Positions 1-13,659 of a DNA stretch of 13,930 nucleotides are shown here, in pieces. Origin of the DNA: Actinomycetes bacterium. GTDB taxonomy: Bacteria; Actinomycetota; Acidimicrobiia; Acidimicrobiales; Palsa-688. How positions within the stretch are numbered: position 1 is the first letter of the stretch; every line of letters begins with the position of its first letter. Made by a program: the position numbers and the translations under genes. Below the pieces are notes generated by a model, which was given only the letters and a program-made list of their open reading frames with translations, made no database searches and was not told the DNA's origin. Location: the NCBI GenBank assembly GCA_021811865.1, contig JAKAQB010000080.1, positions 1 through 13,930 of the forward strand, read 5' to 3'.

Positions 1-12
1 AACGCCGCTTAT

Positions 13-75
13 CCCGCGGGTGGGCCGCCGATCAGGCCACGTTGGAGCAGCTCGGGCCCAAACGTGAAGACCTCA
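13..75. mobile_element. Right end of a second, diverged copy of the outer element
   Basis: This stretch matches the right end of the outer element (5688-5750) in the same orientation and with identical spacing. CCCGCGGGTG at 13-22 and 5688-5697 is followed 44 bases later by CCCAAACG in both. The middle part is only moderately similar, but the last 16 bases, AAACGTGAAGACCTCA (60-75), are identical. I read it as the right terminus of a related element whose body lies left of the window. No gene is visible in 1-75. Confidence 0.6.
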
Positions 76-78
76 CCG

Positions 79-94
79 TGAGGTCTTCACGTTT
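79..94 (+). repeat. Left terminal inverted repeat of the outer element
   Basis: TGAGGTCTTCACGTTT is the exact complement of 5735-5750. It also pairs with 60-75 across the 3-base spacer CCG, so two outward-facing ends abut here. A weaker related motif, TCTTCACATTTGGGG, follows at about 107-121 and may be a second transposase-binding site. Confidence 0.75.
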
Positions 95-118
95 CGGAGG
101 CCTCCATCTTCACATTTG

Positions 119-152
119 GGGTGTGACACCCAGGGAGCCGGGCGTGACACCC
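119..152. repeat. Paired subterminal repeats GGGYGTGACACCC
   Basis: GGGTGTGACACCC (119-131) and GGGCGTGACACCC (140-152) are direct copies 21 bp apart, about two helical turns. The first is itself a palindrome around a central G. Their place just inside the left terminus suggests protein-binding sites for transposition. This is inference from position and spacing; no such pair was seen at the right end. Confidence 0.45.
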
Positions 153-158
153 GCGAGT

Positions 159-174
159 GGCCCCTCTTGGGGCC
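159..174 (-). terminator. Stem-loop downstream of the transposase gene
   Basis: GGCCCC (159-164) and GGGGCC (169-174) form a 6-bp stem with a 4-base loop. It lies about 75 bases beyond the transposase stop codon on the minus strand. There is no clear U tract, so termination is only one possible role. Confidence 0.3.
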
Positions 175-184
175 GTTCGTCGCA

Positions 185-2155
185 TCATGGCCCGGTCACG
201 GGCGCTTGGGATCCCCCGTGGTCCGGCAGGCGCTGGAGCGGAGGCGCGACTACGGCGGCGCGTTGACGCTCGCCCCGGCGAGCTCGGCCAAGGTCCGTCG
301 CCGGCGGCGACGCTTCCTCGGCTCCCGTGGAGCTATCGGGCGTGCCGCCTGGGCCTCGTGCACCTCGAACGCGTCGATAAGGCCGAAGTTGACGACGACG
401 CAGGCGCAGGCGAGGAACAGCCCGAGCCCGGCGACGCCCGACAGCTTGCACCAGCCCCGCACGTCGACGTTGATCCCGGCGGGGTCCTTGAGGCGCGAGT
501 TCGACCGCTCGACGGCGCTGCGCCGGCCGTAGGAGGAACGGTGTGCGGGTGAGGGATAGTCGTGCTTCTGGGCCGTCTTGGTGTTCACGACGCAATCGGC
601 TCAGCTCCGAGGCGGGACTTTGACCCTCCTTTGAGGTCGCCGGAAGAGGGATCTTGAACGAGATCTCGACTCGATCGTCGACGACGGTCACCTTCTCGAT
701 GACGGTGCGGACGAGCTGCTGACGTCGAGCGAAGTTCATGGCGGCGAGCTGGCTCCTCACCGTGGCCGCGAACTCGTCGATCCGACCGGCGAGATCGGTC
801 GCCGTCCGCTTCTGCCGAGAGGCACTCTGCAGCTGCTGTTCGAGCTCGCCGGTGCGATCGGCAATGGGCCTCCGACGTGTCTCGAGCTCCCGCAGCGTGA
901 TCGCACCTGCCTGATAGGCGTCGAGGAGTCGGGACTGTTGCGCACGGAGCTCAGCGAGCTGGCGGGCGGCACCGTCGTCCATGGCGTCGTCGCTGGCGGC
1001 AGCGCAACTCTGCAGGATCAGCTCCGGATGCTCGAGGTGCCGCAGCACCTCTCCCCAGACGAGCTCGTCGAGCTCGTCAGCGCGGGCGGCGGGCTGGGAG
1101 CAGCGGAGATGCTCGGCCCGCAGGTGCATGGGCAGGGCGTTGGTGCACCGGTAGTAGCAGTAGAGGGGGCCTTCTCCCTTCTTCCTCTGCTGGGTTTGGC
1201 GGGACTGCCCGCACTCCCCGCAGCGCACGAGGTAGCGCAGGAGGTAGCGATCGGTCGAGCCGTGGCGCGGGCTGAACGCCCGGTTGCGCTCATGCTGGGC
1301 CTGGGAACGCGTCCAGGTCTCCATGTCGACGATGGCTGGGATGGTGACGCCGATCCACTCGTCTTCGGGTCTCGTCTCTCGGATGGGGCGATGGTCGGCG
1401 GTGTAGTGCGGAAGACGTGGGCGGTCGGTGTGGACGATGCGGCGGTTGTAGTAGAGCGTCCCCGTGTAGGCGGCTTGGCGAAGGATCGGCCCGACCGTGC
1501 CGGGGTGCCAGACGCGCCCGCCGGCGGGCGCCGGGATCCCGGCCTCCATCAATCGGATGGCGATCTCGCGGATCGTGACGTCACCGCTCGCATGCCAGGC
1601 GAACATCTGGCGCACGACGGCCGCTTCCTCCTCGACGACCTCGACGCGTCCGGGCTGGCCAAGGGAGGCGGGCAGTTTGCGGTAGCCGTAGGGGACACGG
1701 CCGGAGACGACTTCTCCCTGGCGCGCCCGCCAGAGCTTGCCGCGCCGGTTCCGGTCGACGATCTTCGTGCGCTCGAACTCGGCCACCGCTGCCTGGATCT
1801 GGGCGAGCAGTCGTCCTTGCGGGTCGTCGGCACGGCCGCCCTCCAAGAAGAGGACCGAGACGCCGAAGCGCGCCAGCTCCTCGAGGACGAGCGCCTGGTG
1901 GACGTAGTTGCGGGCGAGGCGATCGGGGCACAGGACGACGACGGTGTCGATGCGGCGGGCCGCCGCGGCGTCACGGAGCTGGTCGAGCCCGGGTCGGTCA
2001 AGGCGCGCCCCGGAGTAGCCGTCGTCGGTGCAGCTCAGCTCGACGTGCCAGCCCTCGGCGGTCGCTCTCGCCTCGAGGGCCTCGATCTGCGAGCCGATGG
2101 TCCGCTCCCTCTCCTGGCGCTCGGTGGACACCCTGGCATACAGGCCGACTCTCAC
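185..2155 (-). CDS. Large serine recombinase of the inner element
   Basis: This predicted site-specific serine recombinase should integrate and excise the inner element. The catalytic domain starts with YARVST (nucleophile Ser10) and includes the CPDRLARN segment near 76-83. A recombinase domain follows at about 150-290. A zinc ribbon has cysteines at 312, 315, 333, 337 and perhaps 352, then a coiled coil at about 397-445. The GTG start at 2155 follows AAGGAGG at good spacing. Conserved-looking sequence ends near residue 505 (IPLP). The element boundary at 580 falls at about residue 526, and beyond it the frame runs through the split transposase out of its proper frame, adding about 129 arginine-rich residues to the stop at 185. 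In the excised circle the same frame would instead enter 3155-3021 and end after 44 other residues. The family assignment is firm; the tail swap is inference. Confidence 0.9.
   Translation of the reverse strand: MRVGLYARVSTERQERERTIGSQIEALEARATAEGWHVELSCTDDGYSGARLDRPGLDQLRDAAAARRIDTVVVLCPDRLARNYVHQALVLEELARFGVSVLFLEGGRADDPQGRLLAQIQAAVAEFERTKIVDRNRRGKLWRARQGEVVSGRVPYGYRKLPASLGQPGRVEVVEEEAAVVRQMFAWHASGDVTIREIAIRLMEAGIPAPAGGRVWHPGTVGPILRQAAYTGTLYYNRRIVHTDRPRLPHYTADHRPIRETRPEDEWIGVTIPAIVDMETWTRSQAQHERNRAFSPRHGSTDRYLLRYLVRCGECGQSRQTQQRKKGEGPLYCYYRCTNALPMHLRAEHLRCSQPAARADELDELVWGEVLRHLEHPELILQSCAAASDDAMDDGAARQLAELRAQQSRLLDAYQAGAITLRELETRRRPIADRTGELEQQLQSASRQKRTATDLAGRIDEFAATVRSQLAAMNFARRQQLVRTVIEKVTVVDDRVEISFKIPLPATSKEGQSPASELSRLRREHQDGPEARLSLTRTPFLLRPAQRRRAVELAPQGPRRDQRRRAGLVQAVGRRRARAVPRLRLRRRQLRPYRRVRGARGPGGTPDSSTGAEEASPPATDLGRARRGERQRAAVVAPPLQRLPDHGGSQAPVTGP
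250..600 (-). pseudogene. DDE transposase, C-terminal part (split gene)
   Basis: This is the C-terminal third of the transposase whose N-terminal part lies at 3155-4342. True transposase sequence runs from 579 to 250. It contains DYPSP, then VERSNSRLKD, whose Glu (residue 418 of the rebuilt protein) is the likely third catalytic acid. Next come RGWCKL, a hydrophobic stretch ending NFGLIDAFE, and a basic RKRRRRRR tail before the stop. From memory, this order matches the end of intact actinobacterial transposases of the family. A GTG at 588 could start a 112-residue fragment, but it would lack both catalytic aspartates. Separation from the N-terminal half is explained by insertion of the inner element. 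Confidence 0.8.
574..599. other. Left attachment junction of the inner element
   Basis: CGTCTT (574-579) is the block shared with 3155-3160, where transposase sequence meets element sequence. On the element side, CGACGCAATCGG (588-599) is the inverted counterpart of CCGATTGTGTCG at 3139-3150, with 11 of 12 positions complementary. These are the two arms expected of a serine-integrase attP. Leftward from 573 the sequence is transposase. Confidence 0.75.
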
Positions 2156-2171
2156 CGGCTTCCTCCTTCGG

Positions 2172-2402
2172 TCAGGTCGCTTCGGTCAGCAGCTGGTAGG
2201 CGGCGGTCAGGGCCGCCAGTCGTGGGTCGTCACCGGTCCAGCGCGGCTCGGGAGCCTCCGAGACGGCGACGCGCCACGCCGGGCGACCCGACGCCAGGCC
2301 GAAGAGCCCGTAGCGGGCGAGGCGACGGGCGTCCTCGCTGTCGGCGGGCGTGCCGCCGAGCGCACTCGCTCGCAGCTCTTCGTAGCGCGGCGCCCAGGAC
2401 AC
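2172..2402 (-). CDS. Small unknown protein between HTH and recombinase genes
   Basis: About 76 residues, of unknown function. The protein begins VSWAPRYEELRASALGG and ends AALTAAYQLLTEAT. It is rich in Ala, Arg and Trp with no membrane segment. I chose the GTG at 2402 because it begins one base after the upstream gene's stop and opens the part that looks conserved. An in-frame GTG at 2435 would add 11 residues and overlap the upstream gene by 32 bases. The stop lies 16 bases before the recombinase start, so all three genes are probably co-transcribed. I recall similar small proteins at this position in related actinobacterial cassettes; a recombination accessory role is possible but unproven. 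Confidence 0.6.
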   Translation of the reverse strand: MSWAPRYEELRASALGGTPADSEDARRLARYGLFGLASGRPAWRVAVSEAPEPRWTGDDPRLAALTAAYQLLTEAT

Positions 2403-2403
2403 C

Positions 2404-2877
2404 TCACGCCTCGCCCGCGTGAGACGACGCGCCACTTTTGGGCACCAGCAGTCGCTCCACCGTCCGTCGGTGCAGCCGGATGCCGAAGCGATCCTCGACT
2501 TTCGAGGCCAGTTCAGGTCCCGACAGCCCGGGGTCCTGCGCCTTCGCGTCGCGGACGAAGGTGACGATCTCGACGGTCGCCTTGAGCGGGCCCTTGCGGC
2601 CGCGCTTGCCCTCGGCGAGGCCAGCGATGCCCCGGGCGTCGAGCGCCCGCCGCAAGGTGTAGAAGGTCTGGCGGCTCACTCCGAAGAGCCGGCACGCTTC
2701 GACCACGCTCATCTCGCCCCTCGCCGGACCGCGGAGCATTTCGTAGCGAACCTGGAGGCGGTCCTCGGCGTCGAAGAACTCCGGGTGGGTGCGGAAGGGG
2801 TCGGCGAGCACGCTCTCGGGCGTCGGGTTGAGCGCCCCCTGCAGCTGCAGCGCTCGGCGCTTCTGGGTGTCGGCCAC
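2404..2877 (-). CDS. Helix-turn-helix DNA-binding protein of the inner element
   Basis: A 157-residue protein resembling the DNA-binding part of IS481/IS630-type transposases but with no catalytic domain. A first helix-turn-helix lies at about residues 55-95 (SVVEACRLFGVSRQTFYTLR, then GIAGLAEGKRGRKGP). A second winged region at about 110-145 contains LSGPELASKVEDRFGIRLHR. It probably binds the element's att or promoter DNA, as a directionality factor or regulator (inference). The GTG start at 2877 has only a weak ribosome site. The gene is first in the operon, ahead of the small protein and the recombinase. Confidence 0.75.
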   Translation of the reverse strand: MADTQKRRALQLQGALNPTPESVLADPFRTHPEFFDAEDRLQVRYEMLRGPARGEMSVVEACRLFGVSRQTFYTLRRALDARGIAGLAEGKRGRKGPLKATVEIVTFVRDAKAQDPGLSGPELASKVEDRFGIRLHRRTVERLLVPKSGASSHAGEA

Positions 2878-3138
2878 GTCCAGACTCTACTGATTCCTCG
2901 CCGAGTTGTCATGCATTATGCGCCTACAGATGTCCTGCTACCCAACACGACCCCCTTCTATTGCTACATTGCCAGGATGTGCCGGCTCAGGCAGGCACTC
3001 TTTACCTGACACTGCGACATTCATTCGCTGACACTTGGTGGAGCAGGGCGCCGAGCGATGAGACGCTCTTGGACACGCCTCTTGCGAATCAGCGGCTGGT
3101 CGGGATCCAAGTCGATTGCCAGCGCGAACCAAACGTGT
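2878..3138 (-). promoter_or_regulatory. Upstream region of the inner operon, containing an alternative recombinase tail
   Basis: On the minus strand, a CATAAT -10-like hexamer lies about 45 bases before the helix-turn-helix start, with a poor -35 (TTGGGT) 19 bases further upstream. TGACACT is repeated at 3007-3013 and 3029-3035, 22 bp apart. The stretch 3155-3021 is open on the minus strand for 44 codons, ending in SVSE and TGA. It reads in frame from the recombinase if the element circularises. Promoter strength cannot be judged. Confidence 0.35.
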
Positions 3139-4342
3139 CCGATTGTGTCGGCTTCGTCTTCGCGTTGACCTGGGGCGGGACCGTGACGCTCTTTCGCGTG
3201 CAGCAGACCGGCGGCTCCTCCGGCGGCGAGAAGACTTCGGGTCGTGCATAGGCAAGCGCCATCGAGGCCGGACGATGCAGGCAGCGGAGCTTTTGGAGCT
3301 CGGCCGGGCAGGCGACGCGGTGGTAGCCATCGGCGTCGTCGTGGGTGAGCCGGCCGAGCTTGTAACGGGCGAGCTCGGCGCAGCGCTCGTCGTGCGCCGC
3401 GACCTCCTCTCTGCTCGCGCCTCGGGGAAGCGGGCCAAGGGAGAGAAGCGCCGTTGGCGTGGCCGGGCAGTACAGGTTCCCGTTGTGGCAGATCGCCCCG
3501 GCGAAGGTCCCCTTCGGGCCTCGGTCGTTCGGGTGCAGGTCGACGACGAGGCTTGCCCCGGCGGTCCGAAGCGGGAGCGCGAAGTGCTCGGGGACCTTGT
3601 AGGCGTAGCCCGAGTCGGCGAGCACGTCGTGCAGAACGACGCCGCAGGCGGCGCTGTTCGTCACCACGGCGACGAAGGACGGCACCGGGTCGTGGCGGCA
3701 CGAGGCGAGCTGGACCCGGCGGATGAGCTCGGGGACAGGTCCTCCGCGCTCGTCTCTCACCATCGTCATCAACGAGCCGTAGTAGCCGAAGAACAGCTCG
3801 TCGCGCTGGCCCGGGCCGTCGCCTCGCCGATGCCCCCAGGTCGCCTCGGGATCGGCGCAGGGCCCGCCCTCTTCGGCCGGGGGGCGAAAGAAGGAGGGCA
3901 CGTCGGTCCAGTCGATCGCGTAGGAGCTCGATGCGTCCTTGTAGGGGATTGGGATGCTCGCCTCGACGAGGAGGTCGCAGAGCTCCTGGAGCGCCTCGGA
4001 CGGGGCCCCATCGGGACGGTCCTTTGTAAGCGCCTTCGCCACAAGGTGCATCGTGTACTCGACCTGGCGATAGGTGAGGAGATGCGGGCCAGCCCGCCAG
4101 GGCGTCACGATCCCGAGGCGGACCTTCTCGGGCGGATCGAGGCCGACGAGGACGGCGTGCACGCCGGACAGATAGGCCACCTGGTGCCCCTCGGACAGGC
4201 AGGCGCACATGCCGAGAAGGAGGGTGCGCACGGCGAGCTGGCGCGGCCGGACCCCCATCGGCAGGCCCGCCTCGATGGCGGCGATCGCCTTCGCTGTCGC
4301 CGGCTCGTCGAGCACCGCCTCGAGGCGGGCGAGCTCGATCAC
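3089..4342 (-). pseudogene. DDE transposase, N-terminal part (split gene)
   Basis: This is the N-terminal 396 residues of the outer element's transposase plus 21 junk residues read from the inner element. The GTG start at 4342 overlaps the upstream gene's TGA (GTGA), with AAGGAG just before it, so translation is probably coupled. RNase H-fold features are the aspartate in AIDWTD (Asp144 or Asp147) and DSGYAYK (Asp243). The third acid, Glu418 of the rebuilt protein, is stranded at about 508-510. True sequence ends at VNAKT at 3155; the frame then stops at 3089. Rejoined to 573-250 it gives a continuous 503-residue protein. As it stands it lacks the last catalytic residue. Confidence 0.85.
3139..3160. 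other. Right attachment junction of the inner element
   Basis: CCGATTGTGTCGG (3139-3151) is the inverted arm matching 588-599. CGTCTT (3155-3160) is the shared block, and transposase sequence continues to the right. In the reconstructed 42-bp attP, the centre of symmetry falls at 3159/3160, inside the shared block. Confidence 0.75.
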
Positions 4343-5235
4343 CTGCTCCTTGCTCCAAGGAGGGCGACGGCGGCCTCCTCGCTCGGCGAGGGGACGTGGC
4401 TGACGAGGTCGCCCAGGCGCTGCGAGCAGGAGATCCCAGCCGCGTCCATGAAGGCCGCAAGGCCGATCGTCTCGGCCACCTGGACGAGGTAGGAGGAGCG
4501 CAGCCGCGCCGGCTCGAGGCGGGGCAGGTCGGCCCCGCCAGAGAGCGATCTGATGAGCGGGTTCGTCACGTTGTGGCTTGTGGGGTTGTGACCTGAGACG
4601 AGGTAGCGGGCACCGAAGAAGGAAGCCGCCGAGACCAAGCGGTCGTGGAAGTCCGAGAGCACCGGCACGGCCCGGGGACGGCGCCCGGCGACGAGGACGA
4701 GCAAACCACCCGAGCGAGACACGACGTCCTCCCCCCGCACACCTCGCAGCTCCCCGCCGACGAGGCCCGCCCCGGCCCCGAGGCAGATGAGGGCCGACGC
4801 CCTCTGTCGACGAAGTGGGGTCGGCTGGGCGTCGCAGAGCGCGAGGTAGCCGGCGAGCTCTCGGGGAGAGTACGGCGCCTTTGCTCGTTCCCGGGGCATC
4901 GCGACGGGAGCGGGCGGCTGGCCGACGAGCACGGCGCGGGCGAGGTGGCGCAGGTTCGCCCGCAGCGTCCGGCGCGTCGGGGGGCTGCCGGCATGGGGGG
5001 AGCAAACGAAGCGCTCGACGAGCGAGGTGCGAAGCAGCGCCTCTTCCTCGAGGGGGAGGCCGATACGAAGCCCGAAGCCGGCGAGCTTGCCGGCTGCGAA
5101 CAAGAGCGCCTTCGCCCGCTCAGGGCTGTTCGGTGCGGCCGTCTCGACGACCCGGCGGGCGAAGGCGGCGGCCTCGGGGGGAAGCGAGCGCGGCGCCCAG
5201 GCGACGATCACCTCGGGTGGCGACGGTCGGGTCAT
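4339..5235 (-). CDS. Tyrosine-recombinase-like accessory protein of the outer element
   Basis: A 298-residue protein with the layout of a phage-integrase-fold recombinase: an N-terminal helical core-binding region (about 1-130), then a domain with LGAGAGLVGGELRGVRGEDV, RRPRAVPVL and LEPARLRSSYL. The normal catalytic residues look degenerate. The first Arg of the GLRxxEL motif is Val, the HxLR box reads ARLR, and the C-terminal Tyr region reads LVSHVPS. It may therefore bind DNA without cutting it, as an accessory to the DDE transposase (inference). The ATG at 5235 sits about 7 bases after TATATA, suggesting a leaderless message. Its stop overlaps the transposase GTG. A weak-homology site-specific integrase label is the alternative. 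Confidence 0.7.
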   Translation of the reverse strand: MTRPSPPEVIVAWAPRSLPPEAAAFARRVVETAAPNSPERAKALLFAAGKLAGFGLRIGLPLEEEALLRTSLVERFVCSPHAGSPPTRRTLRANLRHLARAVLVGQPPAPVAMPRERAKAPYSPRELAGYLALCDAQPTPLRRQRASALICLGAGAGLVGGELRGVRGEDVVSRSGGLLVLVAGRRPRAVPVLSDFHDRLVSAASFFGARYLVSGHNPTSHNVTNPLIRSLSGGADLPRLEPARLRSSYLVQVAETIGLAAFMDAAGISCSQRLGDLVSHVPSPSEEAAVALLGARSR

Positions 5236-5298
5236 CGCACCGTATATATACAGTACGCTCACCTCGCGGTGGTGGATGATCCGTGGGAAGGTGATCGT
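5236..5298. promoter_or_regulatory. Divergent promoter region of the outer element
   Basis: The 63-bp gap separates two diverging genes. GTATATATAC (5242-5251) is a perfect palindrome, AT-rich against its surroundings. On the minus strand TATATA ends 7 bases before the ATG at 5235. On the plus strand TACAGT (5249-5254) could be the -10 for the rightward gene. No good -35 is visible for either, so an activator or extended -10 may be used. Confidence 0.5.
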
Positions 5299-5649
5299 GT
5301 GGCGTTGAGCCCGGCACAGTGCGACGAGACGAGACGCATCGCGACCGAGCTCGCCAGGCTCGCCGTCTCGGGCCAGGTGCTGCCCGGCAGCATCGCCGAG
5401 CGGCGAACCCACTGCGGCCGTGCGGGCTGTCGGTGCATGGCGGACCCGCCCCAGCCCCATGGCCCCTACTTCCAGTGGACCCGCAAGGTCGCGAGCAGGA
5501 CCGTCGGCCGGTGGCTGTCGGCCGAGCAGGCCGCGGACTACCGGGTCTTCATCGAGAACGACCGCCGCCTGCACGAGCTGCTCGCCCGCCTCGAGGCGAT
5601 CGGGATCGCTGCCTTGGAGGCCGATCCCCGCACCAGGCGCAAGGTCTGA
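5299..5649 (+). CDS. DUF6788 family protein
   Basis: A 116-residue protein recognised as DUF6788, a family common in actinobacterial mobile elements and of unknown function. The core runs from about residue 30: GSIAERRTHCGRAGCRC, PHGPYFQWTRKVASRTVGRW, then LSAEQAADYRVFIENDRRLH and a C-terminal helix. The CxxxxCxC cluster may bind metal. The GTG start at 5299 follows GGGAAGG with 7-base spacing. It is transcribed away from the recombinase-like gene and lies about 100 bp inside the right terminus. A role in DNA binding or in regulating transposition is possible but not shown. Confidence 0.75.
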   Translation: MALSPAQCDETRRIATELARLAVSGQVLPGSIAERRTHCGRAGCRCMADPPQPHGPYFQWTRKVASRTVGRWLSAEQAADYRVFIENDRRLHELLARLEAIGIAALEADPRTRRKV

Positions 5650-5734
5650 TGCGGGCTGTGGACAGCGCGCGGGTGGCTCGCGCCTAACCCGCGGGTGAGG
5701 CCCCGCTCAGCGACCGAACGGGCAGCTCCCGCCC

Positions 5735-5750
5735 AAACGTGAAGACCTCA
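5735..5750 (-). repeat. Right terminal inverted repeat of the outer element
   Basis: AAACGTGAAGACCTCA is the exact complement of 79-94 and is followed by CCG, as on the left side. Just outside (about 5757-5781), TTGGATCTTCGCGTC loosely resembles a left terminus and may be a decayed remnant of another copy. Confidence 0.75.
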
Positions 5751-5827
5751 CCGCATATTTTGGATCTTCGCGTCTTTCGGGCTGACCGTCCTGGTCTTTC
5801 GTGCTGTTTCGTGGCACTCCGACGGGG

Positions 5828-5862
5828 TTGTCCACAGAGTTTATCGACCCGATTATCGACCC
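5828..5862 (+). repeat. DnaA-box-like site plus tandem TTATCGACCC repeats
   Basis: TTGTCCACA at 5828-5836 is followed by TTATCGACCC twice with a 12-bp period. Together these resemble a small origin or initiator-binding site, but no replication gene is near and a single DnaA box is weak evidence. Confidence 0.35.
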
Positions 5863-5883
5863 CTGATCACCCTGCCATAGGCA

Positions 5884-6012
5884 GCCCTACGCACGGGGTT
5901 CTCGTTACGCAGGGGCCGTACGCTGGGAGTTCGCGGGTGTCGGGCTCAAGGCGTTTTCTCGTGGCCGGGTTTGCCCTACGCAGCCCTACCGCAGCATGGG
6001 GCAGTGCCCTAC
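5884..6012 (+). repeat. GCCCTACGCA repeats, left side of island
   Basis: Four related copies occur at 5884-5893, 5973-5982, 5983-5993 and 6006-6012 (the last is partial). Similar GCCCTATGCAG copies lie on the other side of the two-gene island, at 8284-8294 and 8383-8393, plus an inverted copy at 8362-8370. They may be recombinase-binding or transposase-binding end sequences. Confidence 0.45.
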
Positions 6013-6252
6013 TCGACGCGAATGGAGAAGGCGACGGCGAGGCGCGGACCGTTCGACCGCAAGGAATGCGCATCGCGTCAGCCGTGGAGGTCGAGCGCTC
6101 AGCTAGCTAGCCAGCCGCTCTGAGTGGTGGACGTCGAGCATGGCGGAACGACACGGATCGCGAGTCCCCGCTCAGAGGATCGGGTCGCGAGTCGTCATCG
6201 AGCCGCTCCTGTCGCACCCCTTGCGTAGGCTCCTCGTCCAGGAGGTGAGCCC

Positions 6253-6999
6253 GTGGCTGATCACAGCGCGATTGAGTGGACCGAGGCTACTTGGAATCCG
6301 ACGACTGGCTGCGACCGAACGTCGCCTGGATGCGATCACTGCTATGCGCTCACGCTAGCGCGAAGACTGAAGGCAATGGGCAACCCCAAGTACCAAGTCG
6401 ACGGTGATCCGCGCACTTCAGGTCCGGGGTTCGGGATCGCGATCCACAAGGACCAGCTCGACTTGCCTAGGCGATGGGCCACGCCGCGGACGATCTTCGT
6501 CAACTCGATGAGCGACCTCTTCCACCCTGCCGTGCCCGACTCGTTCATAGCGGATGTCTTCGCCGTCATAAGCGACACCCCTCGCCATACGTACCAGGTT
6601 CTCACGAAGCGGTCGAGACGACTCGCCGCGCTTGCCAATACGCTCCGCTGGCCCGAGAACCTATGGATGGGCGTGAGCGTCGAAAGTGCTCGGTACACCT
6701 TCCGTATCGGCGACCTTCGAAAGACTCCAGCGGCGACGAAGTTCTTGTCGATCGAGCCACTCCTCGGACCGGTAGGCAAGCTTGATCTTGACGGCGTCCA
6801 ATGGGTCATCGTCGGGGGCGAGTCGGGTTATGGCGCACGTCCCGTCGAGTACGAATGGATAGTTGAGGTGCGGGACCAGTGCGCTGCAGACGGCGTTCCC
6901 TTCTTCTTCAAACAGTGGGGAGGCAGAACCCCGAAGTCCGGCGGAAGGGAACTCGACGGTCGGCATTGGGATGAAATGCCGCGGAGACTGGTCGGCTGA
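6253..6999 (+). CDS. DUF5131 (phage Gp37/Gp68-like) family protein
   Basis: A 248-residue protein close to the usual length of the family. The N-terminus has IEWTEATWNP then the three-cysteine motif C-x6-C-x2-C (Cys20, Cys27, Cys30), which resembles an iron-sulfur or radical-SAM-like ligand set. Later landmarks are FVNSMSDLFHP (about residue 85), YQVLTKRSRR, WMGVSVE, FLSIEPLLGP and VGGESG, with FFKQWGG near the C-terminus. The biochemical function is not established to my knowledge. The GTG start at 6253 follows GGAGG with 7-base spacing. Its stop abuts the next gene's ATG, so the pair is one transcription unit. Base composition looks less GC-rich than the flanking genes, suggesting transfer. 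Confidence 0.9.
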   Translation: MADHSAIEWTEATWNPTTGCDRTSPGCDHCYALTLARRLKAMGNPKYQVDGDPRTSGPGFGIAIHKDQLDLPRRWATPRTIFVNSMSDLFHPAVPDSFIADVFAVISDTPRHTYQVLTKRSRRLAALANTLRWPENLWMGVSVESARYTFRIGDLRKTPAATKFLSIEPLLGPVGKLDLDGVQWVIVGGESGYGARPVEYEWIVEVRDQCAADGVPFFFKQWGGRTPKSGGRELDGRHWDEMPRRLVG

Positions 7000-8076
7000 A
7001 TGGCGGTTCCAAAGGACGTCGTGTGGGACCGCGACCCACACACCGAGGCGAAGCACGACTTGCTGAAGATCTACCTGGATGCCTGGTTCCCGATCATGGC
7101 ATCGAGATGGTTGTCGACTGGGATCTGCTATGTCGACGCCTTCGCCGGACCCGGCGAGTACCGCGACGGCAGCGTGGGGTCGCCGATCATCGCACTGGAT
7201 GCTGCTTGCCGGTCTGACGTCAGTCAGTACCCGACTGAGGTACAGCTGGTCTTCGTCGAGAAGGAGCCCGATCGGTTCGCGCATCTCGAATCGATGGTTG
7301 TAGGTCGGAACCTGGCCCGGCGATGCCATGTGACGAGGAAGCTGGGTGCCTGCGAGGAAGTGCTCCTCCCCGAACTCGATCAGATCAAGGTATCGAAAGG
7401 ACCGGTGTTTGCGAACTTTGACGGCTGGGGTGTGGACACGCCTTTTGAACTCATCAAGTGTGTCGGCCAAGGGAAGCGACCTGAAGTTCTCGTCACGTTT
7501 CACTCGCAGTGGTTCACGCGTTTTGCCGGGCAAGAGGAAGTCGGTGCGGGTGACCGAGTCTTCGGTGATCGCCAATGGCGGGCAGTAGCAGATCTCCCAA
7601 GTCCGATCGAGAAGAGGAGATATCTCGTCGACGAGTATCGTCGGCGCCTCACCGAGGCAGGGTTCCCATATCACCTGACGTTCGAGCTGGTCGACGAAGG
7701 TGGCCATCCGCTCTTCCTCGTGTTCGGGACGACGCAGGAAATCGGCGTGGAGAAGATGAAGGACGCCATGTGGCGAGTGGACACCGTGTCTGGATCGAAG
7801 TTCAGAGACCCTCGCGATCCGAACCAGCTGGCATTCGATCTCTCGGACGGCGACCCGAATCTCACCCTGCTCCTGCAGCAGATCCGGGAGCAACTGGATC
7901 AAGGTCCGAAGACCCTCTTTGAGCTACAGCAGTTTGCCCTTCTCGAGACCGTCTTCAAGAAAGTACACGCGAAGACCGCTGTGGACCGCTTGGAGGCCGA
8001 CGGAAAGGTCACGTGCCGACGCGCTCGGGCCTATGAGCAGTTTATAGTACAGAGAGCTGCAGACTCGCTGTTCTGA
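7000..8076 (+). CDS. tcmP: Three-Cys-motif partner protein TcmP
   Basis: A 358-residue protein recognised as TcmP, which is typically encoded beside a DUF5131 gene, as here. It has DPHTEAKHDLLKIYLDAWFP near the N-terminus. YVDAFAGPGEY (residues 44-54) resembles a SAM-binding motif I, and QLVFVEKEPDRF (about 82-93) fits the acidic residue after strand 2. FANFDGWGVDTPF (about 137-149) is in a motif IV-like position. I infer a Rossmann methyltransferase-like fold with an unknown substrate. The C-terminal 90 residues look like a winged-helix region. The ATG is directly after the upstream TGA. No terminator follows immediately; a stem-loop lies 85 bases downstream. Confidence 0.9.
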   Translation: MAVPKDVVWDRDPHTEAKHDLLKIYLDAWFPIMASRWLSTGICYVDAFAGPGEYRDGSVGSPIIALDAACRSDVSQYPTEVQLVFVEKEPDRFAHLESMVVGRNLARRCHVTRKLGACEEVLLPELDQIKVSKGPVFANFDGWGVDTPFELIKCVGQGKRPEVLVTFHSQWFTRFAGQEEVGAGDRVFGDRQWRAVADLPSPIEKRRYLVDEYRRRLTEAGFPYHLTFELVDEGGHPLFLVFGTTQEIGVEKMKDAMWRVDTVSGSKFRDPRDPNQLAFDLSDGDPNLTLLLQQIREQLDQGPKTLFELQQFALLETVFKKVHAKTAVDRLEADGKVTCRRARAYEQFIVQRAADSLF

Positions 8077-8160
8077 GCGCATGATGATCGAGCGCGTTGG
8101 CGTCGGGCTCGTAACGGAGCAGTCGGCGGTTCGGACTTCACCCCCGCCACCAACGAATCG

Positions 8161-8203
8161 CTGGTCGGCGCGCCTTGTTCCTAAGGCACAGGCGCCTGAC
8201 CAG
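8161..8203 (+). terminator. Stem-loop downstream of tcmP
   Basis: CTGGTC (8161-8166) and GGCGC (8167-8171) pair with GCGCC (8192-8196) and GACCAG (8198-8203), leaving a 20-base loop and one bulged T. There is no U tract, so this could be a terminator or a recombination-site palindrome. Confidence 0.35.
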
Positions 8204-8283
8204 CGTGTTCGCGTCCGGGCCGAGGTCGCAGATCGGGGTTTCTCGGGGCTTTTTCTCGGGACCTACTCAACTTCGCGCACGGT

Positions 8284-8393
8284 GCCCTATGCAGGTGGGC
8301 ACGGGCGCATACGGCGCGTACGCTGCGGCTTCGCGATAGCCGGATTGGCCTGCGAGCGGCCGCATAGGGCGGCACTGGTGCAGCCCTATGCAG
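8284..8393 (+). repeat. GCCCTATGCAG repeats, right side of island
   Basis: GCCCTATGCAG occurs at 8284-8294 and 8383-8393. An inverted GCATAGGGC at 8362-8370 pairs perfectly with 8383-8391 around a 12-base spacer. They resemble the GCCCTACGCA copies left of the island, suggesting one family of sites bracketing the two genes. Confidence 0.45.
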
Positions 8394-8401
8394 TTGCACT
8401 G

Positions 8402-8476
8402 CTCAAGAGGTCGCCGTTGCCAGCACCGTAGCGGTGCTGTTCCGCAGGGGTTCGAGTCCCCTCGGGAGGTCTTGAG
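8402..8476 (+). other. tRNA-like structured segment
   Basis: AGGGG (8446-8450), TTCGAGT (8451-8457) and CCCCT (8458-8462) form a textbook tRNA T-arm. CAGCACCG (8421-8428) and CGGTGCTG (8432-8439) form an 8-bp hairpin with loop TAG. CTCAAGA (8402-8408) pairs with TCTTGAG (8470-8476). Seven bases (CGGGAGG) separate the T-arm from that outer stem, and no D-arm or anticodon arm fits, so this is not a complete tRNA. It may be the 3' part of a tRNA left by integration, or a mimic. Confidence 0.3.
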
Positions 8477-8748
8477 GTGGCATAAGGCGAAACCGTTTGC
8501 CCAGGTAGACGGCGTGACCGTTCAGTTGCCCCGGTCGAACACCGTCACCCGTCTGGGTACGGGCGATCGGTAGCCCCTGTTGGCGGCATGACTTCCTGAG
8601 GCCCCTGACGCGACGCTCGGCCGTGCTGTTCGGTGACGCGGCATTGGCCCGGCAGCGTGCCCAGCGGGGAGGATGAGCGGTCCCTGAACGCGAGGGACCC
8701 CTCCCCGCGGCTCTGTTTGGCAACGAACGCGAGAAGGGGTCCAAGGCG
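8477..8748. other. Non-coding stretch upstream of the DUF6431 gene, with a long hairpin
   Basis: No convincing gene is seen here. The main structure is a strong two-part hairpin: GCGGGGAGG (8664-8672) with CCTCCCCGC (8700-8708), and inside it GGTCCCT (8679-8685) with AGGGACC (8693-8699), leaving a 6-base bulge. It ends 40 bases before the next start codon. It could shield the downstream element from outside transcription, or mark the element's end. Confidence 0.4.
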
Positions 8749-9432
8749 GTGTTGCCACCTGTGGCCATCGTATGGCCCTGCGCGCTGTCCGTCGACGCCT
8801 ACGCGTCGCTCGGCAAGGACGTCGAGGTCCCGCGCCCGGACTGCCCCGACTGCTCGGCGGCGATGATCTTCTGGTCTGGCTACATCCGTCCGCTCCGGGT
8901 GCTCGGAGCCTGCGTGCGCCTCTTCGTGCGCCGGGCGCGCTGTCGCGACTGCACGGTCACCCACGCCCTGCTGCCGGCGTTCGCGCTCTCGAAGCGCCTC
9001 GATGCCGTCGAGACGGTGGGCGAAGCGATCGAGGCCGTGATCGAGGGCCGAAGCGGCGTGCGACCCGTCGCCTCGGCGCTTCGGGTCCCGTACACGACCG
9101 CACGTGGCTGGCTGCGTCGGTTCGTCGAGCGCTCCGGCGAGATCGCGATGTCCTTTGCCGCCCTCGCGATCGATCTCGGTGCTGGCGAGCTGGCGGGATC
9201 ACCGCTCCCCGGCTCACCGGGAGCTGTCGGGGCGCTTCGCCGGGCCTTCGCTGCTGCGTGCGCGCTTCCGGGCTGGGTGCTTGTTGGCGCCTGGCGCTTC
9301 TGTTCGGTCGCAAGCGGCGGGCGGCTGATCGCCGCCAACACCATCTCGCCCTACCTCGTCGTCGGCAGGAGGCGTTTCATGCCTCCTGCCCCATTTCCCC
9401 GTGACGAGGAGGACCGAACAGGTGGAACCTGA
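8749..9432 (+). CDS. DUF6431 zinc-ribbon protein
   Basis: A 227-residue protein of the DUF6431 type, usually found just upstream of a DDE transposase in actinobacterial insertion elements. A four-cysteine ribbon is formed by Cys32, Cys35, Cys65 and Cys68 (CPDC and CRDC). A helix-turn-helix-like segment follows at about 90-125: SGVRPVASALRVPYTTARGW then LRRF. The C-terminal half is Ala- and Gly-rich. It is probably a DNA-binding accessory to transposition (inference). The GTG at 8749 follows AAGGGG at about 9 bases. The gene overlaps the transposase start by 11 bases, implying coupled translation. Confidence 0.75.
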   Translation: MLPPVAIVWPCALSVDAYASLGKDVEVPRPDCPDCSAAMIFWSGYIRPLRVLGACVRLFVRRARCRDCTVTHALLPAFALSKRLDAVETVGEAIEAVIEGRSGVRPVASALRVPYTTARGWLRRFVERSGEIAMSFAALAIDLGAGELAGSPLPGSPGAVGALRRAFAAACALPGWVLVGAWRFCSVASGGRLIAANTISPYLVVGRRRFMPPAPFPRDEEDRTGGT

Positions 9433-9832
9433 CCAGTCCGAGCAGATCGCGATCCACCGCTTCTCGGTGATCGCCGAGGCGACGAACGAGCGCCTCACAA
9501 AGGCCGAGCGCGGCGCGATCGTGCGGGCCATCGCCGAGCGCACCCAGCAGCATCCCGACGGGACGCAGCGCCGCTACTCGCGCTCGAGCATCGACCGGTG
9601 GATCCGGGCGTGGCGCAAGGACGGCCTCGCCGGGCTGCGCCCAGGTCCGCGATCAGACACCGGCGCGGTGCGCGCCCATCCCGAGCTGTTCGCCGAGGCC
9701 TGTGCGCTCCGCCTCGAGCTGCCGACTGTTGAGCGACCGTGTCGCTCAACATCCGTGCCGCTCCAGTCGTGCCTGTCTCGGGTGCTCCTCTTACCGGGCC
9801 AGACGGAGAACCGCGCCGGCAACAGCACCTAG
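9422..9832 (+). pseudogene. DDE transposase, truncated after its N-terminal DNA-binding region
   Basis: The GTG at 9422 lies 9 bases after AGGAGG; an in-frame GTG at 9401 is less likely. About 100 residues look genuine: ERLTKAERGAIVRAIAERTQ, RRYSRSSIDRWIRAWRKDGL, AGLRPGPRSDTGAVR, and HPELFAEACALRLELP. This is the helix-turn-helix front of an IS481- or Mu-like transposase. The match ends near 9724, where a perfect inverted repeat begins, and the remaining residues to the stop at 9832 are unrelated. The whole catalytic domain is missing, so the protein cannot transpose. It overlaps the DUF6431 gene, with which it once formed one element. Confidence 0.7.
9727..9751. repeat. Perfect 11-bp inverted repeat at the transposase breakpoint
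   Basis: TGTTGAGCGAC (9727-9737) and GTCGCTCAACA (9741-9751) flank the 3-base spacer CGT. The TG...CA outer ends look like insertion-sequence termini, and the repeat lies exactly where transposase homology stops. It could be element ends left by an internal deletion, or a terminator without a U tract. Confidence 0.5.
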
Positions 9833-9993
9833 CGCCTCCGGCACCGGGAAGGATCGCCTGCGGGCGGGACGGGGTCACCCAGCTCACCTCACCCAGACGG
9901 TGGGCGCCTTGCTCGCCGCCGTGGACAGCACGTATCGCTCCAGCATCGACCCGAGCGGCCGCGGTGTCGCCGGCGAGAGGGAGCAACGGTCTC
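9752..9993. other. Intergenic stretch, nothing recognised
   Basis: After the transposase homology ends I see no gene, RNA or clear repeat up to the stop of the ribbon-helix-helix gene. Codons continue open to 9832 without recognisable protein. No terminator for the leftward operon is evident. Confidence 0.4.
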
Positions 9994-10203
9994 TCAGGCA
10001 GACGCTGGCAGATTGCGCGGTGGACGCCCGCGGCGTGGCAGGGCACCCGCATCCTTCGGAAGACGCCCCGCTTGACGGAGCGCCTCCCGAAGGAGCACCT
10101 CGATCTGCGCGGTAGTGCTGCGTACCTCATCGGCTGCCCACCGGGCCAGCGCGTCGTAGACGCGCGGATCCATCCGGATGAGGACGTTCTTGCGTTCAGC
10201 CAC
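9994..10203 (-). CDS. Ribbon-helix-helix (Arc/CopG-like) DNA-binding protein
   Basis: A 69-residue protein: MAERKNVLIRMDPRVYDALA (strand and helix A), RWAADEVRSTTAQIEVLLRE (helix B), then a basic Pro-rich tail. This is the pattern of Arc-like ribbon-helix-helix regulators that follow SPFH genes in actinobacteria. The GTG start at 10203 follows GGGAG at about 9-10 bases and lies 18 bases past the SPFH stop, so the two are probably co-transcribed. It may repress the operon through the palindrome at 11182-11193 (inference). Confidence 0.8.
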   Translation of the reverse strand: MAERKNVLIRMDPRVYDALARWAADEVRSTTAQIEVLLREALRQAGRLPKDAGALPRRGRPPRNLPASA

Positions 10204-10221
10204 GGGCAGTCGGCTCCCGGC

Positions 10222-11147
10222 TCACAGATACAACGAGCCGGTGTTGACCATGGGCTGCGTGCCGTGGTGGCTGCAAAGATCGACAAGGAGATTGCTGACC
10301 ATCGTCGCCTTTCGCTCCTCGTCGAGCTCTACCACGTGCTCTCGCTCGAGACGGTCGGGCGCGAGCTCGACCATGCCGACAGCTCTGTCGACGATCTGCT
10401 GACGCGCCGCCACGATGGCGGCGGCCTGCTGGCGCCTCGACATGGCCTGCGCGATCTCGGGCGCGCACGCGACGCGGGCGAGCTGGCGTTCGAGGATGGC
10501 GACGCCAGCCGCTGCAACTCTTCGTTTGACCTCGAAAGAGAGCCGCTCGGAGATCTCGGCAGCATTGGCGCTGAGCGAGGGTTCCCCCTCGTCGACGGGC
10601 TGGAAGCGGTGGTCGGCGACCACCTGACGAAGGGCCATCTCGCACTGAGTCCCGACGAGCTGGGCGACGTCTTCGACCTCGAAGCTCGCGAGCGCAGTGC
10701 CTGTCACTCGCCAGTTGGCGGTAATCGCAACCTCGACCGGTATACCGTCGAGGTCGTTGACCTTCAATGTCGCGCTCTGGTGGGTTCGCAGCCTCGTCGA
10801 GATCCGGTGGCGCGTCGAGCCGGGCCGCACCCGCCACGAGCCCGGTCCTCTTAGGCTCCCGACACAGCTACCGAGGTATTGGACCACGACCGCCTCACCC
10901 GGCGCGACCCTCGTCAATCCTTGAAGACCGACAGCGCCGGCCCCAGGAGCGCGGCGGCGCCGATCCAAAGGCGCACCCGACCGCTTCCGGCGCCGTGGGT
11001 CGAGGAACGAACGGCCAAGGCGAACAGCACAACCCCACCGGCACGGCCAGCCAGGCTGAGGCGTAGGAGCGCGGCTCCGGCAGTGCTGCTCAGCGGCACC
11101 TCGCGAAGCTCGTCGGAGAGCATCCGCGGATTTCCCCCTGGCGCCAT
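10222..11147 (-). pseudogene. SPFH/band 7 membrane protein, apparently frameshifted
   Basis: SPFH proteins scaffold membrane microdomains. The N-terminal frame starts at ATG 11147, after GGAGGG, and has two hydrophobic segments (GGVVLFALAV and WIGAAALLGPALSVF) before a stop at 10914. The SPFH domain lies in the -1 frame: LTRVAPGEAVVVQYLG, TLKVNDLDGIPVEVAITANW, the helical region PEIAQAMSRRQQAAAIVAAR, and the end VNTGSLYL at 10222. The segments join cleanly near 10920. The 926-base span is one base short of whole codons, so a single missing base would restore 308 residues. No clear slippery heptamer is seen. It could be a true mutation or a sequencing error; independent start of the SPFH part at a TTG near 10919 is possible but would lack the membrane anchor. 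Confidence 0.7.
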
Positions 11148-11163
11148 GTAGTCCCTCCAACCC

Positions 11164-11202
11164 TTGACCTGGCACGAGTATAGTGATATCACTTTCGCTG
11201 TG
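11164..11202. promoter_or_regulatory. Divergent promoters with a shared palindromic operator
   Basis: On the plus strand TTGACC (11164-11169), a 17-base spacer and TATCAC (11187-11192) form a promoter. Its expected start is at about 11199-11200, exactly at the GTG of the ABC gene. On the minus strand TATACT (11182-11177) is a good -10 for the SPFH gene. AGTGATATCACT (11182-11193) is a perfect 12-bp palindrome overlapping both -10 elements. A dimeric repressor binding here would control both directions; the ribbon-helix-helix protein is a candidate. Confidence 0.6.
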
Positions 11203-12237
11203 GTGGCGGGCGAGCCGGATACGAGCCCCGCTGGACGGGGCTCGACGAGCACCGGCCAGCAGGAGCGTTCGACTGCACGCCCTCGCACGAGTCCGGATGC
11301 TGCCGCACTTCGCGTCGAGCACCTGACCAAGCGCTTCGGCAGCCGCTTTGCCTTCGATGACGTGTCCTTCGAAGTCGGCTACGGCGAGGTGTTCGGCTTC
11401 CTCGGACCGAACGGGGCAGGTAAGACGACGACCGTGCGGACGCTCGGCACGCTGCTCTCGCCCAGCTCCGGGTCGGCGACGGTGGCAGGGGTCGAGTTGC
11501 GCCCGGAGAACGGACCGGCCATCCGGTCCCGGATCTCGATCATGCCGGAGTCTCCGGGCCTCTACCTGCGCCTCACGGCGGCAGAGAATCTCGAGTGCTT
11601 CGCGCGCCTCTACCGCCTGTCCGATCCGCACGAGCGCATCGCGCACGCGCTGCGGGCGGTAAACCTCACCGAGAGGGCCGACGATCTCTGCCGGTCGCTC
11701 TCCAAGGGCCTTCGCCAGCGGGTGGCGCTGGCGAGAGCGCTGCTCAACGACCCGGCGGTCCTCTTCCTCGACGAGCCCACCTCTGGGCTCGACCCGGTCG
11801 CGACGCGAGAGGTGCACGAGCTCGTCGCGACGCTCAAGGACCGCGGCGTGACCATCTTCTTGACGACCCACCGCCTGGAGGAGGCCGAGCGGCTCTGTGA
11901 CCGCGTCGCCATCCTCAACACGACGCTGCGCCTCGTGGGCCGCCCCGGCGAGCTGCGCGACCAGCTCTTCACGAGGAGCCTCGAGGTCCGGCTGCGTACC
12001 GAGCTTCCCGACCCCGCCCCGGTGTTCGCGAGACTTCCCGGGGTCGAGAGCTGGAAGGCTGAGCCGCCCTCCTCCTACACGTTGACCGTGTCGGATCCCG
12101 ACGCTCTTGCGCCCGAGGTCGCCCGAGCCCTCGTGCGCGCCGGCGCGGACATCTGCTCGATCGGTGAGTCCGGCCACTCCCTCGAAGACGTCTACCTGCA
12201 GCTCGTCGACGAGGACGTGGAGGCGAAGCGGCGATGA
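11200..12237 (+). CDS. ABC transporter ATP-binding protein
   Basis: A 345-residue ATPase energising an exporter-type ABC-2 system. Walker A is GPNGAGKTT (residues 69-77), the signature region is SKGLRQRVALARAL, Walker B is VLFLDEPTSGLD, and the H-loop is LTTHRLEEAERL. The last 90 residues form a divergent accessory domain typical of drug, antibiotic or Na exporters. I chose GTG 11200 because a promoter predicts transcription starting there, giving a leaderless message; GTG 11203 and an upstream TTG at 11164 are alternatives. The first 35 residues are a Ser/Thr/Pro-rich extension before the usual LRVEHLTKRFG start. Its stop overlaps the permease ATG (ATGA). The substrate cannot be told. Confidence 0.9.
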   Translation: MVAGEPDTSPAGRGSTSTGQQERSTARPRTSPDAAALRVEHLTKRFGSRFAFDDVSFEVGYGEVFGFLGPNGAGKTTTVRTLGTLLSPSSGSATVAGVELRPENGPAIRSRISIMPESPGLYLRLTAAENLECFARLYRLSDPHERIAHALRAVNLTERADDLCRSLSKGLRQRVALARALLNDPAVLFLDEPTSGLDPVATREVHELVATLKDRGVTIFLTTHRLEEAERLCDRVAILNTTLRLVGRPGELRDQLFTRSLEVRLRTELPDPAPVFARLPGVESWKAEPPSSYTLTVSDPDALAPEVARALVRAGADICSIGESGHSLEDVYLQLVDEDVEAKRR

Positions 12238-12968
12238 GCTTCAGCTGGGCTCGGATCTGGGCGATCCTGCAAAAGGAGCTGCGCGACTACCGCCGCAACC
12301 GATTCGTCATTGCCACCATGGCAATGCTGCCGGTGATCTTCGTGATCGTGCCGACGATCGAGCTCTTGACCATCAGGGCCTCTGTGAGCAGCGCCAAGCT
12401 CGATACGCGGATCGGGATCGCCCTGCTCTACATGCTCGTCATCCCGGCGATCGTGCCGTCCGTCCTCGCGGCGTACTCCGTCGTCGGCGAGCGCGAGCAA
12501 GGCACCCTCGAGCCCGTCCTCATCACCCCGATCCGCCGCGAGGAGTTCCTCGTCGGAAAGGCCCTGGCGGTGCTCCTCCCCACCCTTGTCATCGCCTACC
12601 TGGTCTTCGGCATCTTCCTCGGCATCGCGGCGGTCGTCGCCCAGCCCGCCGTCTCCGCGGTCATCTTCGAGCGCTCGCATGTGCTCGTGCAGCTGCTCTT
12701 CACGCCGCTGATCGCCGGTTGGTCGATCTGGGTCGGCATCGCCATATCCGCGCGCTCTGGTGACGTGCGCGCCGCCCAGCAGCTCGGCACGTTCGCCAGC
12801 CTTCCCCCGCTCGGCATCGTCGCCTTGATGTCCTTCAACGTGATCACCCCGACGCTCGGGCTCGCCCTCGGGCTCGCAGCCGCCTTGCTGGTCGCCGATG
12901 GTCTCGGATGGAGGGCGGTGTCCGCGATGTTCGACCGGGAGCGGCTCGTCGGTGGCACGCGCAGCTGA
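12234..12968 (+). CDS. ABC-2 type transporter permease
   Basis: A 244-residue membrane protein that forms the translocation path for the preceding ATPase. After a short cytosolic start with ILQKELRDYRRNR come about six hydrophobic segments: roughly 24-44, 62-82, 108-132, 150-172, 188-204 and 206-222. Between the second and third is the loop EREQGTLEPVLITPIRREEF, characteristic of ABC-2 permeases. The ATG overlaps the ATPase stop by four bases, so translation is coupled. A TGA ends the gene at 12968, with no obvious terminator after it. Confidence 0.88.
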   Translation: MSFSWARIWAILQKELRDYRRNRFVIATMAMLPVIFVIVPTIELLTIRASVSSAKLDTRIGIALLYMLVIPAIVPSVLAAYSVVGEREQGTLEPVLITPIRREEFLVGKALAVLLPTLVIAYLVFGIFLGIAAVVAQPAVSAVIFERSHVLVQLLFTPLIAGWSIWVGIAISARSGDVRAAQQLGTFASLPPLGIVALMSFNVITPTLGLALGLAAALLVADGLGWRAVSAMFDRERLVGGTRS

Positions 12969-13025
12969 CCCCCGCGTCGCAACACCGGACGCAGCGCAAT
13001 GACGAGACGGATAAGGAGACATGGG

Positions 13026-13331
13026 TTGTCGGCAACGCTCAAGCTGACGAGGGCAGGAGCCGGAATGGAGCTCCGTCGCGGAGTGTTCGAGATCCTGGTC
13101 GACGGGGAGCACGTCGGTTCCATCGAATGGCACGGCGAGGTGGAGATCCCGGTCGATCCGGGACGCCACAGCCTCCGGCTGCGAGCGGGCAGGCTTGCGA
13201 GTCGACCTCACGCGTTCGACGCTGGCGAGGGAACGGTCGTGTCCTTCCGGTGCCACGGAGCGATGATGTGGCCGCGCTACGTCGCGTCGATGGTCAAGCC
13301 CGACCTCGCCATTTCGCTCCTGCGCGAGTGA
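13026..13331 (+). CDS. Small beta-rich hypothetical protein
   Basis: A 101-residue protein of unknown function. The N-terminal two thirds alternate hydrophobic and polar residues (FEILVDGEHVGSIEWHGEVE, then IPVDPGRHSLRLRAG), like a small PEGA-like beta sandwich. The tail has a hydrophobic patch (MMWPRYVASM). I chose TTG 13026 because AAGGAG (13013-13018) lies 7 bases upstream and the protein then opens as SATLKLTR. An ATG at 12999 would add 9 residues but has no ribosome site. It lies 57 bases after the permease, so it may share the transcript. Confidence 0.65.
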   Translation: MSATLKLTRAGAGMELRRGVFEILVDGEHVGSIEWHGEVEIPVDPGRHSLRLRAGRLASRPHAFDAGEGTVVSFRCHGAMMWPRYVASMVKPDLAISLLRE

Positions 13332-13659
13332 TCAGCTGACCCGCCCCGCAGCCGCGGGTCTCCGATGGCGGACGGTGGCCGCGATGCTCGGCCGTGAACG
13401 GACCGTGACCGGCAGGCGCGGGCGACCCCTCGGCTCCACCGCCTCACCCCCTGCTTCTGGACAGCCGTGCGCAACCTCACCTGTCGGGAGCTGAACACAC
13501 GCTAAGGAACAGTTCACCGGTCCGAGGAGACAGTTCACCCGCGGTCGTCCTCGCGTTGTCGGGGCCGTCACGAGGGCGCCATAAGGTCGCCACACGCGCG
13601 GCCGGCAACGGCCGGCGCCCCCCAATCTGGTGGCACCAGACGACGAACAGGAGCGATGA
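13332..13659 (+). promoter_or_regulatory. Upstream region of the solute-binding protein gene, with paired repeats
   Basis: No gene is seen in this stretch. ACAGTTCACC occurs at 13509-13518 and again at 13530-13539, 21 bp apart, i.e. on the same helical face; these are candidate regulator sites. A weak promoter (TTGTCG at 13556-13561, CATAAG at 13580-13585, 18-base spacer) follows. AGGAG at 13649-13653 is the ribosome site of the next gene. Confidence 0.45.

Follow-up and report, generated by a model that had tools for sequence, protein, structure and literature searches.

An actinobacterial large serine recombinase gene that contains attP in frame: a state-dependent C-terminus and its possible role in directionality

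Serine integrases of the SPbeta (YokA/SprA) and A118/LI type end at a normal stop codon outside the phage attachment site (attP). In Pseudomonas phage phiCTX, attP is reported to overlap the 3' end of int, which encodes a tyrosine integrase. Here we describe an integrative element in a 13,930-nucleotide stretch of DNA from an Actinomycetes bacterium (GenBank assembly GCA_021811865.1, contig JAKAQB010000080.1, positions 1 to 13,930; hereafter the window), in which the predicted attP sits in frame inside the gene of the element's own large serine recombinase. The arrangement resembles that of archaeal SSV-type suicidal integrases, which have att in their own integrase gene so that integration parts the gene; self-disrupting recombinases of this kind have been described in a review as exclusively archaeal (PMC8371274). 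SSV-type integrases are, however, tyrosine recombinases in which the split separates the catalytic part, whereas the window enzyme is bacterial, has a serine Resolvase domain and exchanges only its tail, the catalytic and zinc ribbon domains staying together on one side. A second parallel is mycobacteriophage BPs, whose attP also lies within a gene, so that virus and prophage make products with different C-termini (PMC4557955). That gene encodes a repressor, which in the viral form ends in a degradation tag, whereas the window gene encodes a recombinase.

Among the best solved-structure matches of the window enzyme are the SPbeta and A118/LI serine integrases (9dxh, E = 6.8e-31; 4kis, E = 9.3e-17), which differ from it in using a separate recombination directionality factor (RDF). 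Two other kinds of serine recombinase were rejected: the NCBIfam IS607 transposase model scores 39.5 bits against a cut-off of 110, and among the SCC cassette recombinases CcrA/B/C the best, CcrB, reaches 110.5 bits against an NCBIfam cut-off of 900. We file the element under large serine recombinase elements, with a self-splitting recombinase of the serine type. A search of titles and abstract openings, with subscription journals largely outside it, brought up no serine recombinase described as having attP within the gene that encodes it, and the available part of a survey of large serine recombinases makes no mention of such an arrangement (PMC10083194).

Between 578 and 3158 the window probably holds a compact integrative element, about 2.58 kb in length, that is moved by this recombinase. 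The gene starts with GTG at 2155 on the minus strand and has no stop ahead of the crossover, and its N-terminal Resolvase domain and the Recombinase and zinc ribbon domains that follow all exceed the Pfam cut-offs. The parts of the element and of the interrupted target gene are as follows.

580 to 2155, minus strand: body of the large serine recombinase, 525 codons plus one base, with Resolvase, Recombinase and zinc ribbon domains
580 to 595, minus strand: attP half-arm within the 3' coding end of the recombinase gene, TTGCGTCGTGAACACC, encoding LRREH
578 to 579, minus strand: 2-bp crossover core AA, first end
3159 to 3160, minus strand: 2-bp crossover core AA, opposite end
3143 to 3158, minus strand: attP half-arm at the opposite end, GACGAAGCCGACACAA, forming the first codons of the detached tail
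3021 to 3158, minus strand: 3' portion of the recombinase gene, detached in the integrated state; it encodes 45 residues and a stop, and continues the frame of the body in the circle alone
185 to 577, minus strand: integrated-state read-through of the recombinase, which crosses the target gene in a frame other than that of the target and completes 656 residues
250 to 577, minus strand: 3' part of the target gene, without a Pfam match
3161 to 4415, minus strand: 5' part of the target gene, with the extent taken for flank joining; the true start may differ

In the integrated state the recombinase frame stays open to a stop at 185, giving a protein of 656 residues for which an identical record exists (P0001); frame reading thus bears out the absence of a stop and the read-through proposed in a previous sequence-only reading. 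When the flanks are joined at AA, a single open reading frame (ORF) of the target is restored. An uninterrupted homologue of the target (genome G001, C640, L136) spans the junction with 60% identity over 126 residues and no stops and, because it spans the joined flanks, fixes the position of the crossover. The target has no Pfam match, and the name transposase is the label that the earlier reading gave it. The core AA stands at both ends, so that attL and attR share a 2-bp crossover core, as is characteristic of large serine recombinases. Joining the element ends in silico yields a recombinase of 571 residues, with 45 residues past the crossover and a stop at 3021-3023. The total length agrees with the sequence-only reading, which had a 44-residue tail starting with EADTIGH at 3155; the tail begins one codon earlier, at 3158, and has 45 residues. 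The proposal that it stops shortly before an operon promoter was checked only weakly, one promoter-like match (2912-2884) being present in the stretch scanned. As read from the DNA, integration severs the last 45 codons of the recombinase, and residues encoded by the flank take their place. A fusion of recombinase and target proteins was rejected, since in the window the tail added on integration is read in another frame than the target, and the tails of homologues mostly differ.

We gathered 80 genome loci, 24 viral loci, one plasmid locus and further genome loci, and ran an ungapped inverted-repeat search of the recombinase 3' end against upstream DNA on 83 of the loci (window included). Forty-three repeats were accepted by eye, the second-ranked repeat being taken for L008, L021 and L025. 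A TTGCG-type motif in the phase of the recombinase, which we required, is present in 40 of the 43 and lacking in L065, L118 and L127; L056 was left out, its left end having no counterpart. The final set comprises 39 loci plus the window, for which the interrupted target and not the repeat search defined the ends; together they make 40 elements in 37 clusters at 90%; the other 39 loci searched were not classed. Joins used a fixed geometry, from which the tails of L017, L034, L058 and L073 (body match starting late or interrupted) were also taken, and the right-hand core where the two cores were unequal; variable-offset core finding gave wrong frames in several elements.

One geometry is common to all 40 elements: a 16-nt arm, a 2-bp core and a second 16-nt arm. 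The frame runs through the core without a stop in every one of them, across 15 distinct linker lengths (12-38 codons). The core dinucleotide is the same at both ends in 29 of the 38 comparable elements, where about 2.4 would be expected at 1 in 16. When the phase was not required, 50 of 79 non-duplicate loci matched the motif at 8 or 9 of 9 positions, and in 47 of these 50 the best match lies solely in frame 0, a count of related rather than independent sequences; L035 ties between frames, and L086 and L127 differ.

Once the ends are joined by the 16-2-16 geometry, the frame continues into a segment at the other end whose sequence is similar among the members of a group. One mostly alphaproteobacterial group, for example, has the tail VHxPNAIxxLRFxxxLPF followed by arginines, and actinobacterial elements have HQRNAKLxLTVTL...GLYxxPxHRRRLRRP; in L105 the joined frame continues to the recombinase start, and its tail is uncertain. 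Between the window and L001, whose bodies are 61% identical, 16 of 38 tail residues are identical and the stop is held in common, with a BLOSUM score per residue of 1.92 in the joined frame versus -0.03 in both others. For tests of selection we chose the tail groups ourselves. Column permutation gives an excess of third-position changes in the joined frame in three of them (P = 0.035 for 16 loci, 0.0003 for 7 and 0.011 for 4), and none of the three has a stop in that frame. In five groups the ratio of nonsynonymous to synonymous differences per site (pN/pS) comes to 0.41, 0.38, 0.44, 0.26 and 0.32 when the tail is read in the joined frame, which indicates purifying selection; the other frames give 0.77-4.04. 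Two saturated sets have joined-frame values of 0.7 and 0.8. Tail conservation, as judged from these alignments, is shown within groups only. Since selection acts in the joined frame although the tail is severed from the body in the integrated state, a functional joined state is indicated. A separately expressed tail peptide is unlikely for the window, as no ATG, GTG or TTG was seen in frame, by eye, in the first 16 tail codons.

Accidental read-through was the case to consider had close homologues stopped before residue 527 and shown no conservation of the tail. We found the opposite on both counts, with 40 of 40 elements reading through and the tail conserved within groups, and we reject it on the stop-free frames across 15 linker lengths, the selection on the tail and the frame-0 motif in 47 of 50 loci.

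Among phage records the best matches are those of Wolbachia phage WO; the packaged WOVitA1 recombinase aligns with the joined protein of L033 at 34.1% identity, covering 63% of that protein. The record KX522565 derives from DNA of purified WOVitA1 particles, and Sanger sequencing confirmed its attP (PMC5062602). The recombinase of this packaged form continues past ...GEIFNLQHCTGRH with DVYNNVTKNNIIEFSRIIPRVFLCSKRGN... and has 579 residues in all. Its counterpart in the prophage record HQ906662 has the same sequence as far as LQHCTGRH, but a different end, NSEAIVFAFANLQIKR, and a length of 550 residues. The phage DNA past the junction equals the far end of the prophage record (100% over 280 bases), HQ906662 stopping 47 bases short of where this right-end match ends and the left junction lying outside the record. 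Two C-termini are thus documented in deposited sequence for this distant relative, which, together with the family-wide read-through, supports the earlier proposal that the tail differs by state. The published text on phage WO, as far as it was available and including PMC5062602, yielded no remark on the C-terminal swap. Like the window enzyme, the phage WO recombinase is a homologue whose frame passes through attP and whose C-terminus is changed by integration; unlike the window element, WO is a 65-kb phage whose attP itself has been reported (PMC5062602). Three of our loci, L139, L141 and L142, carry the WOVitA1 recombinase, its C-terminus differing between packaged and prophage forms. Taken as an architecture, the state-dependent tail is well supported; from it we infer the directional role discussed below. 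The effects that the sequence-only reading suggested for the swap, a bias in direction or a change in stability, would be plausible.

A protein search with the window recombinase scored 7990 candidates and gave 2299 relatives, the best 120 of which were listed. Among the matches listed, those with 60-84% identity and at least 96% query cover are 531-697 residues long. The conserved part of the listed homologues stops at an LRS-like motif (window residues 521-523), and the remainder mostly diverges, while some have a tail in common, as if inserted in the same target. At the last body strand 114 of the 120 could be aligned, and 97 of them have the motif within 60 residues; by eye, 13 more have a DLC variant, and four (P0032, P0039, P0043 and P0104) lack it. 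From the motif onward the 97 have 6-273 residues (median 85, contig ends included). Such variety of C-terminal lengths and sequences is what read-through into different flanks predicts. When the L033 tail was compared with a large protein set for contiguous full-length proteins, 152 candidates gave one match, P0121, and the L054 tail gave one candidate and no match; the window's own tail was not among the probes. P0121 is a tyrosine integrase record of 409 residues that runs in frame into an actinobacterial-type tail, probably an attL fusion, and databases probably hold such chimeras.

The 40 elements fall into two size classes, about 1.7-2.2 kb (19 elements, in which no helix-turn-helix (HTH) gene was found) and about 2.6-2.8 kb (21 elements, of which all except L034 have one). 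In most of the small elements just 200-270 nt or so separate the tail stop from the recombinase start, leaving little room for a directionality factor. The lack of a found HTH gene in 20 of 40 elements, 19 of them small, fits control without a separate factor. The window element itself does have two extra small genes, which are candidate regulators or directionality factors.

2404 to 2877, minus strand: HTH protein of 157 residues (HTH_28/29/32), found in 20 of 40 elements, window included
2172 to 2435, minus strand: ORF of 87 residues that overlaps the HTH gene and matches no Pfam or NCBIfam family; 6 of the 40 elements, the window among them, were found to have it

Two TGTCA boxes overlap the tail stop and the next spacer in the window (about 3005-3036) and in L001, L002, L006, L009 and L014. 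A TGTCA sequence also lies close upstream of the attP arm in 11 elements of the 40, 10 of which have the HTH gene. These boxes are possibly operators of the HTH protein.

The reading that we consider most likely is that the circle-form enzyme integrates and the tail-swapped, integrated form excises. The circle would express the full-length enzyme, which would perform attP x attB integration; once the element is integrated, only the tail-swapped enzyme could be encoded, and this enzyme would have to carry out excision (attL x attR), since small relatives without room for a second gene are present in genomes where such places are numerous. Relatives were found at 15, 12 and 8 places in genomes G003, G006 and G010, counts that mix several kinds and not just recent copies. 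Body plus own tail would thus integrate and body plus foreign tail excise, the tail being a built-in directionality switch that recombination itself resets. C-terminal fusions of an integrase to its RDF alter directionality, and the C-terminus of LI integrase lies near the coiled coil (PMC5737554); by analogy with this other serine integrase, the tail perhaps acts at the coiled coil. More tentatively, and with rather less confidence than in the proposal for the window, the elements may form a bacteria-wide class of serine recombinases in which the enzyme's own DNA rearrangement is the directionality switch: the circle enzyme would only integrate, the random-tailed enzyme would only excise, no RDF would be used, excision would reset the system and phage WO would use the same device.

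Several observations weigh against a switch of this kind. No circle or joined attP of the window element was seen, and probes for the joined forms of other groups found none either, few candidates having been scored. The attP arms of the window agree at merely 9 of 16 positions, and the core dinucleotides are unequal in 9 of 38 elements. In the comparison of the window with L001, pN/pS is 0.8 (saturated), against 0.9 and 1.47 in the other frames, and a profile built from the tails of one group does not recover those of other groups, the best-scoring frame being the right one in 9 of 21. Finally, in the endosymbiont Ca. Fukatsuia symbiotica, which has nine copies about 99.4-99.9% alike over 2.0 kb (L060, L062-L065, L067 and L075-L077) with about five different left flanks, the left end is by eye one base shorter than that of relatives, placing the joined tail out of frame; the tail would therefore be dispensable there, or movement would occur in trans or passively with hosts. 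The recombinase is interrupted in three of the nine copies. Joined attP patterns were likewise absent from viral contigs (0 for two patterns) and from genomes (0/385 and 0/394), and for the joined L036 stretch a single plasmid record gave a match, limited to 40 bases from one of the two ends.

Loss of the tail could instead inactivate or destabilise the integrated enzyme, so that the insertion is stable and excision needs complete enzyme supplied in trans. Such a lock would follow the logic of the archaeal suicidal integrases (PMC8371274), and the integrated tails look unconstrained (6-273 residues from the motif in the 97 listed homologues). Yet the catalytic and zinc ribbon domains remain with the body, and elements with little room for genes that would import a circle nevertheless have relatives at many places in some genomes. 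WOVitA1 also makes particles though its prophage record encodes the swapped form, possibly with help from another prophage, and on balance we regard a lock as unlikely. It is less likely again that the tail alters the half-life or amount of the enzyme and not the direction of the reaction. The precedent is BPs, an attP-in-gene C-terminal switch in which integration removes the degradation tag of the repressor (PMC4557955). The joined tails, however, end in VSE, RRR and similar and look unlike an ssrA tag, and purifying selection over some 17-38 codons exceeds what a short degron would need. Least probable of all is an economical overlap: the arm would encode residues that the body requires, a stop would simply come from elsewhere, and the tail region would be kept as DNA (arm, operator) with no part in a swap. 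Conservation of the arms as DNA, the TGTCA repeats over the tail-stop region in some elements and the tolerance of an out-of-frame tail by the Fukatsuia copies would suit it; but five groups show codon-level selection past the arms, three have a stop-free joined frame, the window and L001 have the same tail stop, and the window tail has, by eye, no start codon in frame in its first 16 codons. The proposal that the circle form integrates and the tail-swapped form excises stays the one we favour.

Other features of the window and of its relatives concern their surroundings. Downstream of the target gene and close to the left edge of the window, positions 57-97 contain a near-perfect 20-nt palindrome (95% complementary, 1-nt loop). 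At 6253-8076 a DUF5131 gene is followed by a gene with a GMT-like winged HTH domain; the two may be carried as cargo by a different mobile unit. In the flanks of L015, L020, L044, L050-L053 and L071 the insertion sites resemble conserved motifs of genes of other mobile elements, which, judged by their motifs, look like those of insertion sequence (IS) transposases, istB-like genes and group II intron reverse transcriptases. The elements may thus ride on other mobile elements.

Control of direction is central to the biology of serine integrases and to their use in genome engineering, and separate factors are hard to predict. The elements described here seem to be natural single-protein systems in which the two encoded C-termini can be compared directly. 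With them, the self-splitting recombinases, so far tyrosine enzymes of archaea, would come to include serine enzymes of bacteria, and the unrelated C-terminal extensions on many annotated recombinases of the family would be explained as read-through into flanking DNA.

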